A stretch of DNA of 64,000 nt from Vibrio neonatus (GTDB lineage: Bacteria > Pseudomonadota > Gammaproteobacteria > Enterobacterales > Vibrionaceae). Location of the stretch: assembly GCF_024346975.1 (NCBI RefSeq), contig NZ_AP024885.1, positions 2,232,001 to 2,296,000 of the forward strand, in the 5' to 3' direction. The notes beneath the pieces were generated by a model. That model was not told the origin of the DNA, searched no databases, and saw nothing but the letters and a program-made list of their open reading frames with translations. Positions 13,283 to 63,160 of the stretch are shown here, in pieces (the stretch's first letter is position 1; each line of letters opens with the position of its first letter). The position numbers and the translations under genes are program-made.

Positions 13283-13638
13283 TAAATGATGTCCTCAACG
13301 GGAAATACAGACATCGGTAACACCTGATACGTCATGAGCCTAAGCGGCATAATATTGTTGTCTAATTTAAAAGAAGTCGTGTGACATAGTACCGATTATC
13401 ATATTGAAGATCATTGTTTTGCGGTGTTATTTGGTTGTACTCAGAGCAAAACAGGTGGCGTTGGTCTCCTAGAACGGCTGGCTGGCTAACTCGTTTGTGC
13501 CCCGAAATAATTTTGAATATTTATTCAGTTCGAGTATCTACTCAATATAAGCTCTAATTTTTCTTATGTTCAATTTGTTTAAATGCGTTCAGGTACTTTT
13601 ACCAAGGGTTGTGGAAGTGAAGGACCGATGCCTTGTTT
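13283..13638. other. Non-coding stretch upstream of the cassette-like island
   Basis: About 356 bp between the start of the yqaA-like gene (-) and the first attC-like palindrome. I find no credible gene, RNA or repeat in it. It must hold the yqaA promoter and would contain the left junction of the island if that was inserted. Confidence 0.4.
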
Positions 13639-13792
13639 GTTATCTTTAAGTGATAACATGCCGGCTCGTTTTTATGTGACGATGAAGTGAAATATTTGAT
13701 ATATATTCTTTGTTTTTCAGTAATTTATGGTGGGTTGTTTGCAAGTTGGGCTAGCGTAAAAATGAGCTAGCCTGTTATTAAGAGTGTTATAA
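13639..13792 (+). mobile_element. attC-like palindrome 0 (left of cassette gene A)
   Basis: Imperfect long palindrome. The arms 13651-13676 and 13755-13780 are complementary at 20 of 26 aligned positions (left ATAACAtGCCGGCTCGTTTT, right partner ATAACAgGCTAGCTCATTTT when reversed), separated by 78 nt. Outer GTTAT segments at 13639 and 13786 extend it. The right-end core GTTATAA (13786-13792) is the exact reverse complement of TTATAAC that begins the next palindrome at 14100. Overall size, 130-154 bp, fits Vibrio integron attC (VCR-type) sites. Assignment by eye; boundaries approximate. Confidence 0.5.
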
Positions 13793-13810
13793 CTCAAAGT
13801 GGAGATTCTA

Positions 13811-14098
13811 GTGAAATCAAACAAAAAAGTATTTTTTGCAGGTCTTATCGTTTTGGTGGTTTCTATTCCTGTTTTAGCGGACATATTTACACCTAGCCCT
13901 TCTTGTTCTAAACCGATAAAGCCCTATGAGTTCACATCACAATGGCAACTAGATAGTTTTAATAATGACGTGCAGAGGTACAAGCGGTGCATTCAAAACT
14001 TTATAAGCGAACAAAATAGAGCCGTTAAAACTCATCAACAAGCAGCAAACAATGCAATTAATGAGTGGAATAGATTTGTTCAATATGAGCTTAATTGA
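13811..14098 (+). CDS. Small secreted hypothetical protein (cassette-like gene A)
   Basis: Unrecognised 95-residue protein. It begins with a clear signal peptide: basic KSNKK, a hydrophobic core (VFFAGLIVLVVSIP) and a likely cleavage after VLA at residue 23. The mature part is Cys-poor with two cysteines (about 32 and 60) that could form one disulfide, then a polar helical stretch rich in Gln and Asn. The GTG at 13811 is preceded by GGAG seven bases upstream; an in-frame GTG at 13799 lacks an RBS. It starts 18 bp after a putative attC core and ends right at the next one, the layout of an integron cassette. Function unknown. Confidence 0.7.
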   Translation: MKSNKKVFFAGLIVLVVSIPVLADIFTPSPSCSKPIKPYEFTSQWQLDSFNNDVQRYKRCIQNFISEQNRAVKTHQQAANNAINEWNRFVQYELN

Positions 14099-14198
14099 GT
14101 TATAACAAGTTACTCAAAAGGACGCAAAACGCTGGCTTGTACTCATTCGTCGCTAATTTTAGCCAAGCATTTATGCCCCCATTAGTAAGGCATTGATA
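14099..14198 (+). mobile_element. attC-like palindrome 1 (between cassette genes A and B)
   Basis: Starts with TTATAAC (R''-like, 14100-14106) immediately after the stop of gene A. The left arm TTACTCAAAAGG with GCAAAACGC pairs with the right arm GCATTTATGCCCCCATTAGTAAGG (14167-14190). The left strand has one unpaired base in TTACT(C)AA, like the extrahelical base of real attC sites, and AACGC-TGGC resembles VCR/VPR elements. The expected terminal core GTTRRRY reads ATTGATA here, so the crossover triplet GTT is lost: probably a decayed, inactive site. Confidence 0.55.
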
Positions 14199-14224
14199 TG
14201 CAAACCCAAAGTTCGGAATAGTCA

Positions 14225-14878
14225 GTGATAAAATATTTGTACGGTAAAAAATGTTACTTGGGACCTCTTCTGCAAGGAAATGTTGGGTTCAGATTTAGTG
14301 ATTTGTCTCATTATTCTCGAATGGAAAATGAGATGATGAAAGACGAAGAAATGTCTAAACGGTTTCTTATTAATAAGAATGAGGGCACTTTAAAAATTAA
14401 TGACCACGTCATTAACCCTGAAGATTTGGTTGGTGACCCTCAAGTACGCATTAATACACAACATTGTTTTTGTTTATGCTTTAGTAATAGAAAAGACAGT
14501 TCTGAACTCTACGAGAAATTCAAAGCCGATGTTTGTATTGAAGTTAATGTCACCGAATTTGAAGAATTTCTTAGGGACTTGTTTACTCAAAAATTTCAAG
14601 GTATGTCTGTTATTGGTCGAGACATAATGTATTACGACAAGTATTTACTACCATCCACCTCTGATGCTGTAGATCTTGTCTTCTATAAACCGTCAAGTTT
14701 TAGTCATGAAGTGGAATATCGAATTGCTTTATTTTATCCCTTAAACAAACCGGGATTTGCAGATGAAAATGGTAATGTCATTCCATTCATAAAAGATGAC
14801 GAATCAATCCATATTACAATGACTAGCACAAATAAAGGTTTTTTCAATCAATTCATTGGAAAAGTATATGAAGCGTAA
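14225..14878 (+). CDS. Hypothetical protein (cassette-like gene B), weakly DUF2971-like
   Basis: Unrecognised 217-residue, AT-rich, soluble protein with no signal peptide or membrane helix. GTG start at 14225, about 30 bp after the preceding palindrome. Visible features are an N-terminal FRFSDLSHYS, a central FCLCFSNRKDSSELYEKF followed by ADVCIEVNV, then DIMYYDK and FYKPSSFSHEVEYRIALF. This order (short N-terminal fold motif, a CFS-type stretch, and a K...E.EYR motif) recalls DUF2971 proteins, which are common in accessory DNA, but the resemblance is faint. Flanking attC-like palindromes point to an integron cassette. Function unknown. Confidence 0.65.
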   Translation: MIKYLYGKKCYLGPLLQGNVGFRFSDLSHYSRMENEMMKDEEMSKRFLINKNEGTLKINDHVINPEDLVGDPQVRINTQHCFCLCFSNRKDSSELYEKFKADVCIEVNVTEFEEFLRDLFTQKFQGMSVIGRDIMYYDKYLLPSTSDAVDLVFYKPSSFSHEVEYRIALFYPLNKPGFADENGNVIPFIKDDESIHITMTSTNKGFFNQFIGKVYEA

Positions 14879-14888
14879 ATGAAAATGT

Positions 14889-15015
14889 GCATAACCATTT
14901 AAGAGTGACTCTCAACGCTTGCCATTTTTATTTGTCGTGTTGAGTTCTGTGTTTACGGTGTCCAATTATGAGTTTAAAAGTCATATTAAAATAACTCTCA
15001 GAACAAATGTTAACT
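14889..15015 (+). mobile_element. attC-like palindrome 2 (right of cassette gene B)
   Basis: Starts 11 bp after the stop of gene B. The left segment ATAACCATTTAAGAGTGACT then CTCAACGCTTGCCATTTTT closely resembles Vibrio attC left ends (VCR/VPR-type, TTAAGAGTGA-TC-CAACGCTTGGCATTTTT as I recall them). The right end (14992-15015) AACTCTCAGAACAAATGTTAAC pairs with it: ATAAC with GTTAA(C), ATTT with AAAT, TGACTCTCAA with TAACTCTCA. Both AAC and GTT cores are kept. About 127 bp, the size of a VCR. This is the best-preserved of the three sites. Confidence 0.65.
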
Positions 15016-15017
15016 CC

Positions 15018-15058
15018 AGAAAAACGCCTTAATAGACACTCTATTAAGGCGTTTTGAT
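15018..15058. terminator. Bidirectional terminator between the island and oadB
   Basis: Perfect 15-bp stem AAAACGCCTTAATAG / CTATTAAGGCGTTTT with a 5-nt loop at 15021-15055. It can end oadGAB on the - strand and any read-through from the island on the + strand. It marks the right limit of the accessory island. Confidence 0.88.
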
Positions 15059-15127: not shown

Positions 15128-16258
15128 TTAACCCACTAGCGCCAGCAAAATACCCGCAGCAACGGCAGAGCCAAGTACACCCGCTACGTTTGGCCCCATT
15201 GCGTGCATTAACAAGAAGTTTTGTGGGTTGGCATCTAGACCTACCTTATTCACCACTCGTGCGGCCATTGGGACGGCGGAAACGCCTGCTGCGCCAATTA
15301 ATGGGTTAATGTCTTCTTTAGATACCTTATTCAGCAGTTTCGCCATTAGAACGCCACCTGCTGTACCAATACTAAAGGCTACTGCGCCTAAGCCAAGAAT
15401 ACCTAGTGTTTCAACATTTAAGAATTTATCCGCTTGCAGTTTAGAGCCTACGCCTAAACCTAAGAAGATAGTTACAATGTTGATCAACTCGTTCTGAGCG
15501 GTTTTGCTAAGACGATCCACCACACCGGCTTCACGCATTAAGTTACCTAAACAGAACATTCCCACTAACGGAGAGGCTGATGGTAAAAAGAGTATGGCCA
15601 TTAGCAATACGCCCAGAGGAAAACAGACTTTCTCTGCTTTACCAACATGACGTAATTGACCCATCTTGATCTTACGCTCTTCTGGGGTGGTCAAGGCTTT
15701 CATGATTGGTGGCTGGATAATCGGTACCAACGCCATATAGCTATACGCTGAAACCGCAATTGCGCCTAGCAGTTCGGGTGATAACCGACTGGCTAAGAAG
15801 ATGGCGGTTGGCCCATCCGCACCACCGATGATGGCGATAGATGATGCGTCTGCCAAACTAAATTCCATGCCCGGTACATAGTTAAGTAAGATTGCGCCAA
15901 ACAAAGTCGCAAAAATACCAAACTGAGCCGCCGCGCCTAACCAAAGTGTTTTAGGGTTAGCGATCAAGGCACCAAAATCGGTCATTGCGCCTACGCCCAT
16001 GAAGATAAGTAATGGGAAGATCCCCGTCGAGATCCCCACTTCATAGACGTAATACAGCAGACCACCCGGCTCGGTAAAGCCGGTATTTGGAATGTTTGCC
16101 AATACTGCACCAAAACCAATTGGCAGTAATAATAGGGGCTCAAATCCCTTACGAATGGCAAGAAATAGCAGACCACAACCGACCAAGATCATACAGATTT
16201 GGCCAAATTCAAAGTTAGCGATGCCCGTCTCTTGCCAGAGAATAATTAAACCATCCAT
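15128..16258 (-). CDS. oadB: Oxaloacetate decarboxylase beta subunit, Na+-pumping
   Basis: Integral membrane subunit that decarboxylates carboxybiotin and couples this to outward sodium transport. 376 residues with about ten hydrophobic segments. The conserved sodium-site stretch [23 protein letters not shown] and the later [16 protein letters not shown] and [15 protein letters not shown] are visible. It is 9 bp downstream of oadA and last in the oadGAB operon, followed by a strong terminator. The family also contains methylmalonyl-CoA and glutaconyl-CoA decarboxylase beta subunits; the adjacent oadA fixes the assignment. Confidence 0.96.
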
Positions 16259-18619: not shown

Positions 18620-18696
18620 TGGCGCGTCCTGGAGGATTCGAACCTCCGACCGCCTGGTTCGTAGCCAGGTACTCTATCCAGCTGAGCTAAGGACGC
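18620..18696 (-). tRNA. tRNA-Arg(ACG), copy 1
   Basis: 77 nt including the encoded CCA. Anticodon stem-loop CCTGG-CTACGAA-CCAGG gives anticodon ACG (A34 would be deaminated to inosine by TadA). Acceptor stem GCGTCCT/AGGACGC and T-loop GGTTCGAATCC are intact. Distal member of a tandem array with a 140-bp period. Confidence 0.97.
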
Positions 18697-18759
18697 GCAA
18701 TGCTTCTTTACAGAAGACTTTATAGAATTGCTGATATAGATATCAACATTTCGTTGTAG

Positions 18760-18836
18760 TGGCGCGTCCTGGAGGATTCGAACCTCCGACCGCCTGGTTC
18801 GTAGCCAGGTACTCTATCCAGCTGAGCTAAGGACGC
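18760..18836 (-). tRNA. tRNA-Arg(ACG), copy 2
   Basis: Sequence identical to copy 1 across 77 nt, CCA encoded, anticodon ACG. Separated from its neighbours by the repeated 63-nt spacer. Confidence 0.97.
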
Positions 18837-18899
18837 GCAATGCTTCTTTGCAGAAGACTTTATAGAATTGCTGATATAGATATCAACATTTCGTTGTAG

Positions 18900-18976
18900 T
18901 GGCGCGTCCTGGAGGATTCGAACCTCCGACCGCCTGGTTCGTAGCCAGGTACTCTATCCAGCTGAGCTAAGGACGC
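18900..18976 (-). tRNA. tRNA-Arg(ACG), copy 3
   Basis: Identical 77-nt tRNA, CCA encoded, anticodon ACG. Spacer differs from copies 1-2 by single bases. Confidence 0.97.
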
Positions 18977-19039
18977 GCAATGCTTCTTTGTAGAAGACTT
19001 TATAGAATTGCTGATATCGCTATCAACACTTCGTTGTAG

Positions 19040-19116
19040 TGGCGCGTCCTGGAGGATTCGAACCTCCGACCGCCTGGTTCGTAGCCAGGTACTCTATCCA
19101 GCTGAGCTAAGGACGC
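19040..19116 (-). tRNA. tRNA-Arg(ACG), copy 4
   Basis: Identical 77-nt tRNA, CCA encoded, anticodon ACG. The spacer on its upstream side (19117-19182) is the most diverged of the array. Confidence 0.97.
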
Positions 19117-19182
19117 GCAATGCTTCTTTGCAGAAGACTTTATAGAACCGTTAATATTTCTATCAACCATTCGTTGTAATAG

Positions 19183-19259
19183 TGGCGCGTCCTGGAGGAT
19201 TCGAACCTCCGACCGCCTGGTTCGTAGCCAGGTACTCTATCCAGCTGAGCTAAGGACGC
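19183..19259 (-). tRNA. tRNA-Arg(ACG), copy 5
   Basis: Identical 77-nt tRNA, CCA encoded. First of the five-gene block; its upstream leader (19260-19357) lies just after a terminator and should hold the block's own promoter, for which TGTGATAGACT (around 19337) is a possible extended -10. Confidence 0.96.
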
Positions 19260-19357
19260 ACAATATTTTGTACAATGCTTGTTGTACAATTTTCTTTTTC
19301 AAGAATGTTCTCTTTCAAGAAGGGTGCGAAGTCTATCACACTTTCCAAAATGAGAAA

Positions 19358-19383
19358 CAAAAAAATTGACCAAACGGTCAATA
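19358..19383 (-). terminator. Terminator after tRNA-Ser, inside the tRNA cluster
   Basis: On the - strand TTGACC-GTTT-GGTCAA is a perfect 6-bp hairpin followed by seven T, directly 3' of the tRNA-Ser at 19386. It splits the cluster into two transcription units: Ser-Arg-Ser and Arg x5. Confidence 0.8.
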
Positions 19384-19385
19384 AA

Positions 19386-19478
19386 TGGCGGTGAGGGAGG
19401 GATTCGAACCCTCGATACGGCTACAAACCGTATACTCCCTTAGCAGGGGAGCGCCTTCGGCCACTCGGCCACCTCACC
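19386..19478 (-). tRNA. tRNA-Ser(GCT), copy 1
   Basis: 93-nt class II tRNA with a long variable arm and encoded CCA. Anticodon stem-loop CTCCC-CTGCTAA-GGGAG gives anticodon GCT, reading AGC/AGU. Last gene of the Ser-Arg-Ser unit. Confidence 0.97.
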
Positions 19479-19507
19479 GCATTATATTTTATATCGAATA
19501 AACGATA

Positions 19508-19584
19508 TGGCGCGTCCTGGAGGATTCGAACCTCCGACCGCCTGGTTCGTAGCCAGGTACTCTATCCAGCTGAGCTAAGGACGC
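19508..19584 (-). tRNA. tRNA-Arg(ACG), copy 6
   Basis: Same 77-nt sequence as the five tandem copies, but placed between the two tRNA-Ser genes with different spacers. Confidence 0.97.
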
Positions 19585-19616
19585 GCATTGTTCTCGATTA
19601 AGAGAGTTCGCAAGAA

Positions 19617-19709
19617 TGGCGGTGAGGGAGGGATTCGAACCCTCGATACGGCTACAAACCGTATACTCCCTTAGCAGGGGAGCGCCTTCGGCCACTCGGC
19701 CACCTCACC
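19617..19709 (-). tRNA. tRNA-Ser(GCT), copy 2
   Basis: Identical to the tRNA-Ser at 19386 over 93 nt, anticodon GCT, CCA encoded. First gene of the cluster, directly downstream of a strong promoter. Confidence 0.97.
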
Positions 19710-62944: not shown

Positions 62945-62977
62945 AAAAGTAGCCAACTGGACGGCAGAATTAAAATT

Positions 62978-63157
62978 ACCCTGGGGTGTGCGTCAGCTGG
63001 ATTTATGTCCCTGAGCCGATAAGCAACCCTTAAGGGTTAGTACTTGATGGCTATTGAGCAAGCTCGACTCGTATCGAGAAGCCTACGGTCCTCATTGCTG
63101 ATCCGCCTTGAACCAGCTGGTTCAAGGGCCAAAATCCGCAACGGCACTCTGGGGTCC
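62978..63157 (+). ncRNA. ssrS: 6S RNA
   Basis: Regulatory RNA that binds sigma-70 RNA polymerase in stationary phase. The terminal stem is visible: ACCCTGGGGTG (62978-62988) pairs fully with CACTCTGGGGT (63145-63155) allowing G-U. Inner conserved blocks GTCCCTGAGCCGATA, GAGAAGCCT and CCTTGAACCAGCTGGTTCAAGGG match 6S RNA. A -10 TAAAAT at 62971-62976 precedes it, so the mature end may be a few bases downstream. Position between zapA and fau is the universal gammaproteobacterial one. Confidence 0.95.
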
Positions 63158-63160
63158 CTC

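Follow-up and report, generated by a model that had tools for sequence, protein, structure and literature searches.

A probable decayed class 2-like integron between yqaA and oadB, and its relatives dispersed among Vibrio genomes

Integrons are usually pictured with a single platform for each array. Several described systems invite comparison with the locus analysed here, among them the sedentary superintegron of Vibrio and the class 2 integron of Tn7. The attI2 region of class 2 integrons holds two active cassette promoters, as stated in the available text of the source (PMC5559693), and the accessible part of another report gives the structural elements and binding sites of attI2 as not yet defined (PMC12901181). 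The other two systems are the clusters of attC sites lacking an integrase (CALIN), for which the portion of the source at hand sets a threshold of at least two attC sites (PMC9024848), and the strand-biased circularizing elements (SE), considered below. Within the covered literature on related integrons and elements in Vibrio, which took in few subscription papers or preprints, the family reported here is not described.

The yqaA-oadB interval of the window, the 64-kb stretch of Vibrio DNA examined in this work, is 1845 bp long and contains two co-oriented plus-strand ORFs (99 and 217 codons); long imperfect inverted repeats precede, separate and follow them (Table 1). The initial annotation had described the interval as two co-oriented genes bracketed by three attC-like palindromes, without an integrase and away from the usual superintegron. 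The two genes were found as described. Beyond this, our analysis indicates that the interval is very probably a decayed integron of a class 2-like (IntI2/attI2) type and a member of a family dispersed among Vibrio genomes.

Table 1. Features of the yqaA-oadB interval in the window and, in the last four rows, P2-type integrase genes adjoining ends of related elements at other loci
Feature	Position	Strand	Remarks
yqaA	12827-13282	-	
Native yqaA upstream DNA, common to relatives	13283-13422		82% identity to G090 up to 13422
Unexplained 68 bp from native DNA to the left end of the element	13423-13490		absent from the G090 gap
CTAACTC host-side half-site adjoining the left end	13486-13492	+	consensus outside 22 left ends
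Left end (TTTGTGCCCC...) to intI 3' flank	13495-13570	+	nhmmer left-end profile and similarity to L105
intI fragment, gene interior only	13571-13646	-	89.7% identity to pVgang intI
attI2-like site (palindrome 1)	13648-13790	+	ends at the GTT core, the start of the first cassette
Cassette 1 gene, 99-aa ORF	13799-14098	+	alternative starts possible
attC of cassette 1 (palindrome 2)	14100-14198	+	model R1, 65 bits
Cassette 2 gene, 217-aa protein	14225-14878	+	ORF
attC of cassette 2 (palindrome 3)	14889-15057	+	model R2, 37 bits; right border uncertain
Terminator-like hairpin downstream of oadB	15021-15055		16-pair stem; overlaps possible right end of last attC
oadB	15128-16258	-	
P2-type integrase gene in L176	11261-12238		
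P2-type integrase gene in L175	13513-14547		
P2-type integrase gene in L178	966-1994		
P2-type integrase gene in L203	1007-1981		

Comparison of the interval with that of other Vibrio genomes, proposed in the initial annotation, showed that the island is absent from the nearest relative examined (G090): the gap of this relative measures 196 bp, against 1845 bp here, its DNA is native on both sides, and the flanks are 82-84% identical. Eight of the 37 relatives for which the locus was fetched have gaps of 120-214 bp and the remaining 29 have gaps of about 1.04-1.22 kb; one gap of the approximately 1-kb class, when translated, contained an unrelated oxidoreductase-like ORF (named by eye). Among the matches listed, none to the island part of the query fell inside the intervals of the 37 relatives. 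The 68 bp that separate the native DNA from the left end of the element gave no match in any search made.

Rfam search of the whole window returned tRNAs and 6S RNA only, none of them in the yqaA-oadB interval; eight consecutive tRNA genes are located at 18623-19709 and a 6S RNA gene at 62975-63159. No transposition genes were seen when the ORFs of the 11-18 kb region were read by eye, and the flanks are yqaA and oadB, not Tn7. The promoter scan yielded five promoter-like sites versus 7.8 expected from shuffles, which is not beyond chance, and no such site on the plus strand inside the attI-like site, so no promoter is claimed for the cassettes of the window. Folding as single-stranded DNA, another check put forward in the initial annotation, was uninformative, with bottom-strand z-scores of -1.5, -0.9 and +0.6 for the three repeats, that is, not beyond chance. 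The palindromes alone therefore decide nothing, and folding is not used here as proof of attC sites.

The evidence from homology and from covariance models, on the other hand, is beyond chance. In place of the IntegronFinder model, we built two attC covariance models (R1 and R2) from attC sites of other genomes. This genome was left out of both, R1 was also built without an attC-like site of G052 that is 95% identical to palindrome 2, and R2 derives largely from the large arrays L101 and L113. Against the window, R1 matched palindrome 2 with an E value of 1.6e-15 (next match, 17.5 bits), whereas R2 matched palindrome 3 (E value of 1.9e-6) and, weakly, palindrome 2, with nothing else up to an E value of 10. 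Palindromes 2 and 3 are accordingly attC sites, as the initial annotation had anticipated, the second of them degenerate on its right side. The left half of this last site is clear, its right border falls at about 15015 or about 15055 without a clear right core, an unfiltered scan places it at 14895-15035 (30.5 bits), and the full R2 match passes through the terminator-like hairpin. The right core of the first attC is ATT, not GTT. The core pair that had been noted at the ends of the first gene is real: cassette 1 starts with TGTTATAACTCAA (13785-13797) and its attC with TTGAGTTATAACA (14095-14107), and the two are complementary at 13 of 13 positions, as would be expected of the halves of one attC in a circular cassette.

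Neither cassette protein produced a hit to a Pfam or NCBIfam family above the cut-off or a PADLOC match. Homologues at E ≤ 0.001, not counting the own entry, number 26 for the 99-aa protein, the named ones including Colwellia and Shewanella, and 56 for the 217-aa protein, including Vibrio, Shewanella, Pantoea, Erwinia and Pectobacterium; such a patchy, wide spread fits mobile cassettes. The AlphaFold2 model of the 217-aa protein (pLDDT of 93.8) had no PDB match at E ≤ 0.001 in a structure search (best E value, 0.27). A weak hint of DUF2971 was seen in 3 of 32 cassette 2 homologues (best E value, 0.053).

The remaining palindrome, also taken for an attC-like repeat at first, is of a different kind. 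An unfiltered attC scan inside palindrome 1 gave a best score of only about 4 bits, which is not that of an attC. Instead, the palindrome shows 78% identity over 143 bp to the segment that, on plasmid pVgang (L031) of V. gangliei, separates intI from the first cassette. In both V. chagasii integrons, V. halioticoli, V. fortis and G107, a copy of it is found at a distance of about 170-180 bp upstream of intI. A GTTA core ends 22 of 25 aligned copies, beyond which the sequence is variable; the three copies without a GTT end are those of L114 and two in L102. On their right edge, the copies mostly reach a GTT core, followed by cassettes, and on their left they run into the intI upstream region. 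Altogether, 56 distinct near-full-length attI-like copies were collected. Judged from these alignments, palindrome 1 is an attI-type docking site and not an attC.

For comparison with other integrons, the attI profile, built from Vibrio copies only and without Tn7, was compared with seven loci that carry other integrons (two of these loci are the same place). R721 holds the Tn7 integron, and its record shows the dfrA1-sat2-aadA1 cassettes. Here the profile match (12.4 bits, E value of 0.005 for seven loci) sits between intI2 and dfrA1 and ends at the GTT before the first cassette; the match is weak in bits although exactly placed, and none of 300 dinucleotide shuffles of this R721 stretch reached 5 bits. 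V. tubiashii gave a weak match (7.1 bits, E value of 0.22) and the remaining five loci none up to an E value of 1. Palindrome 1 thus appears to be related to attI2 without being the identical site.

Further support comes from the remains of intI. The initial annotation was right that the interval lacks a working integrase gene, in that our genome-wide search recovered no intact intI (the best of four matches, E value of 2.2e-12 over about 50 residues, is probably XerC/XerD), but not in that the locus lacks any trace of one. The minus-strand fragment of 76 bp matches the interior of the pVgang intI (89.7% identity over 78 columns, E value of 3e-23), and 13511-13570 matches the DNA just downstream of intI in V. 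chagasii L105 (78%, E value of 8e-7); these remains (13511-13646) lie mostly just outside the stretch considered originally (13639-15015). Two internal stretches are missing from the window relative to pVgang; the order and orientation of the intI fragment, the 3' flank and the attI-like site are those of the intact V. gangliei element. Over 318 residues, the IntI of pVgang shares 61% identity with the IntI2 reading in R721; its identity to the IntI encoded beside the large array L101 is 45%. The scrap in the window thus matches, at 90%, an intI gene that encodes a protein with 61% identity to the IntI2 reading.

The likeness to the class 2 integron of Tn7 accordingly extends from IntI to the attI site, which in this family aligns with attI2 up to the crossover; the distance from the intI start to the crossover is about 316 bp in pVgang, compared to about 311 bp given for attI2 in the available text of the source (PMC12901181). 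The differences are equally clear: the family is not located in Tn7, has left and right ends of its own and occurs in many copies per genome, the cassettes of the window are not the Tn7 resistance set, and intI is usually lost or broken in the copies that we read. Close counterparts are the pVgang integron and its relatives in V. chagasii, V. halioticoli and V. fortis, which have the same intI and attI as the window. The left end is present in pVgang, V. chagasii and V. halioticoli, and the right end in pVgang, one V. chagasii copy and V. halioticoli NBRC 102217. In the pVgang-type integrons, intI is intact or nearly so, whereas the window retains only scraps. The pVgang element (2570-6750 in L031) is a complete member of the family; the plasmid that carries it is typed as mobilizable, and the cassettes of the element are annotated as quinolone and fosfomycin resistance. 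Another element, extending from left to right end at 2864-6402 in L134, contains an intI scrap together with an IS605 OrfB/TnpB-like gene, and no attI-like copy was detected in it.

The following history would account for the interval. A small integron of the IntI2/attI2 type would have inserted between yqaA and oadB. As long as its intI was intact, the GTT core at the end of the attI site (palindrome 1) would have been the point at which IntI integrated circular cassettes; two would have been gained in this way, with palindromes 2 and 3 as their respective closing attC sites. Afterwards, and probably in this order, intI would have been deleted down to the 76-bp scrap and the 3' flank, the last attC would have decayed and the right end would have been lost.

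The annotated contrast with the usual superintegron did not hold, as neither the attC nor the intI search revealed a superintegron or large array anywhere in this genome. R1 and R2 together detected at least 14 attC sites at E ≤ 0.01, distributed over eight places with a maximum of three together; these counts are lower bounds, 150 of 1320 and 150 of 1641 first-look candidates having been scored. Like the sedentary superintegron of Vibrio, the window has attC sites of the Vibrio type (those of R2); unlike it, the locus belongs to another IntI clade, as reflected in the 45% identity to the IntI beside L101, and to a genome with no large array found.

Instead of a single array, we found a dispersed family. 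The attI-like element is present in 29 of 148 Vibrio genomes, with at least five copies in this one (G000); only the five best candidates were scored per genome, so that copy numbers are lower bounds. We read 40 loci in detail (41 minus a duplicate), with 40 attI-like copies of at least 60 bits; some of these loci had been selected for carrying intI or a right end, and L031, L102, L104 and L105, counted among them, had also supplied sequences to the attC models. An attC lies within 2.5 kb downstream of 32 of the 40 copies and none does so in the other eight. All 52 downstream attC sites are on the same strand as the attI-like copy, the better strand being taken for each site; upstream attC sites (seven in total) accompany five copies. 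Left out of this count were 12 R1 rows that were weaker antisense matches to sites represented on the opposite strand (the counted downstream ranges include four such sites), R1 rows duplicating R2 sites, L176, which is the same place as L105, and attI-like matches below 60 bits. For the 11 copies mapped in G000 and G015, attC sites were located downstream in six cases and upstream in none. Sequence of intI (>60% identity) lies within 1.5 kb upstream of 13 of the 40 copies, and the left end is present in 17. Family members combine a left end with the attI region, one or a few cassettes and, on the other side, a right end; they occur in varied states of decay and probably moved whole, by site-specific recombination at a quasi-palindromic host site. 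The empty attI that this reading predicts, in which attI would be joined directly to the right end, was not recognised in a search of 227 Vibrio genomes with up to 3 mismatches, which counts against the reading: the 17 matches in 15 genomes comprised 11 attI-like copies that continue differently and six matches without a profile match.

L106 and L109 of this genome and L117 of G015 lack intI and share the same module of about 430 bp from the left end to attI (86-91% identity) at different places, which suggests that it was the shortened form that spread. For L106 and L117, the similarity includes a further 1.3 kb of neighbouring DNA (81%), which makes segmental duplication possible for that pair; L109 has the module in common with both, but not the neighbouring DNA. 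Several G015 copies share further pieces downstream.

While the relic itself is solid, movement of whole mini-integrons is a separate question, for which the support comes from the common ends and the half-sites next to them. Copies used for the left-end profile included those of the window, L031 and L105-L109, and the left-end counts lean on this profile; the window copy, itself part of the profile, scored 47.6 bits (nhmmer). The right end (GTTACTTTYCCATAC...TTTTGTCC), which follows the last attC, is common to many elements and was lost from the window copy; matches to it at E ≤ 0.001 occur in 60 of 148 genomes. The consensus on the outer side of 22 left ends reads CTAACTC (each position at 59-82%), and that on the outer side of 34 right ends, at a fixed distance, reads CGnGTT (59-88% per position); the rows used were 22 of 26 left and 34 of 44 right ends, tandem junctions and weak rows having been removed by hand. 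Furthermore, two tandem pairs have one common TTTTGCCCC junction. The non-random DNA outside the ends looks like the target of a site-specific recombinase, and together with the common outer ends it suggests that the elements moved as units by site-specific recombination. We also observed that the DNA outside the right end is itself a dispersed repeat in L107 (5188-5332) and at several places in G090, and that several right ends have another left-end-like TGCCCC within about 50 bp, as if modules were chained at the same sites.

No recombinase consistently tied to the outer ends was found, and the mobilising enzyme was thus not recovered. A P2-type phage integrase adjoins the left end in L175, L176 and L178 (two of the three from one strain) and the right end in one locus, L203; it could be the mobiliser or a chance neighbour. 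We did not accept it as the mobiliser given that the motif is missing upstream in most further homologue loci: of 18 inspected out of 20 fetched, 13 had no motif upstream beyond a start-codon coincidence and one had a chance-like GGGGCA only. The four mutually homologous loci L208, L209, L211 and L217 carry TTTTTGTCC about 97 bp upstream of the integrase gene, preceded by CTAAC in three; this sequence upstream of the integrase relative resembles the end junction of the family. SE were considered as a carrier as well. Like SE, as these are presented in the available text of PMC9345347, the elements end in imperfect inverted repeats about 20 bp long and have a T-rich junction, a likeness judged by eye; unlike SE, the elements of L107, L108 and L140 span only about 1.4-1.5 kb. 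Moreover, the two complete elements listed, those of L134 and pVgang, contain no int operon with two tyrosine recombinases between their ends, and SE were rejected as the carrier.

The most serious alternative to movement as units is that segmental duplication, or homologous recombination between repeated attI regions, gave rise to the copies without a site-specific system at the ends. We regard this as unlikely, though it accommodates several observations, namely that no recombinase is consistently present at the ends, that the modules are alike enough (about 75-91%) to recombine, and that neighbouring DNA is shared by L106 and L117 and by G015 copies. It is harder to reconcile with the consensus half-sites outside both ends (n = 22 and n = 34), with the junction common to the two tandem pairs, with the native flanks that surround the window copy and with the module that L109 shares with L106 and L117 in unrelated surroundings.

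As for the locus itself, the annotated cluster of attC sites without an integrase stands in so far as the window contains cassettes with attC sites and no working integrase: with R1 and R2, at least two attC sites and no integrase gene nearby place it within the definition of a CALIN. Cassettes might then have inserted away from any integron, for instance at a secondary or attG-type site. Two attC sites on one strand and the lack of an intact intI in the genome are in line with this, and IntI is said, in the part of the source available, to act on attG sites too (PMC12901181). Nevertheless, we consider such an origin very unlikely. The window differs from a CALIN in that it keeps an attI and intI scraps, its parent can be named and its copies form a family with shared ends. 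Immediately upstream, between the host DNA and cassette 1, come the left end, the intI scraps and the attI-like site, ordered as in intact integrons, which is not the arrangement of an attG-type insertion; the cassettes thus sit where an integron would hold them. Compared with a complete integron, the locus has an attI at the array head, by homology, and cassettes with attC sites, and lacks an intact intI, and decayed integron is the description that we prefer.

Even less probable is that palindrome 1 is a MITE-like or other dispersed repeat lying beside an integron remnant by chance, the cassettes having arrived by another route; its long inverted ends, its multiple copies in G000 and in 29 of 148 genomes and the eight copies without a nearby downstream attC would be compatible with such a repeat, yet we set this aside owing to the fixed relation of the palindrome to intI and attC, evident from its constant orientation (52 of 52 downstream attC sites on the same strand versus seven upstream), its position upstream of intI, at about 170-180 bp, where the element is intact or nearly so, its right edge at a GTTA core followed by variable sequence, and its relationship to attI2.

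Returning to the class 2-like integron family, we tentatively put forward, as a possibility that falls short of being probable, that these mini-integrons constitute a transposon-like Vibrio family, in which an attI2-type region and a few cassettes, framed by the conserved ends, would be moved in trans as one unit into a quasi-palindromic host site by a site-specific recombinase, and within which the Tn7 class 2 integron would represent a captured branch. If this is true, docking sites would be scattered and cassettes would be caught, and perhaps expressed, at many chromosomal places rather than in one array. The promoters known from the attI2 region may be the reason why the intI-less L106, L109 and L117 keep the whole region. 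Dispersed attI2-type heads, many without intI, would show an origin of integrase-less attC clusters, and a dispersed family would show by what route cassettes arrive at numerous chromosomal addresses. Together, the 56 distinct natural attI-like copies amount to a conserved map of this site that is directly testable, and the clinically important attI2/IntI2 pair would fall inside a marine Vibrio family.
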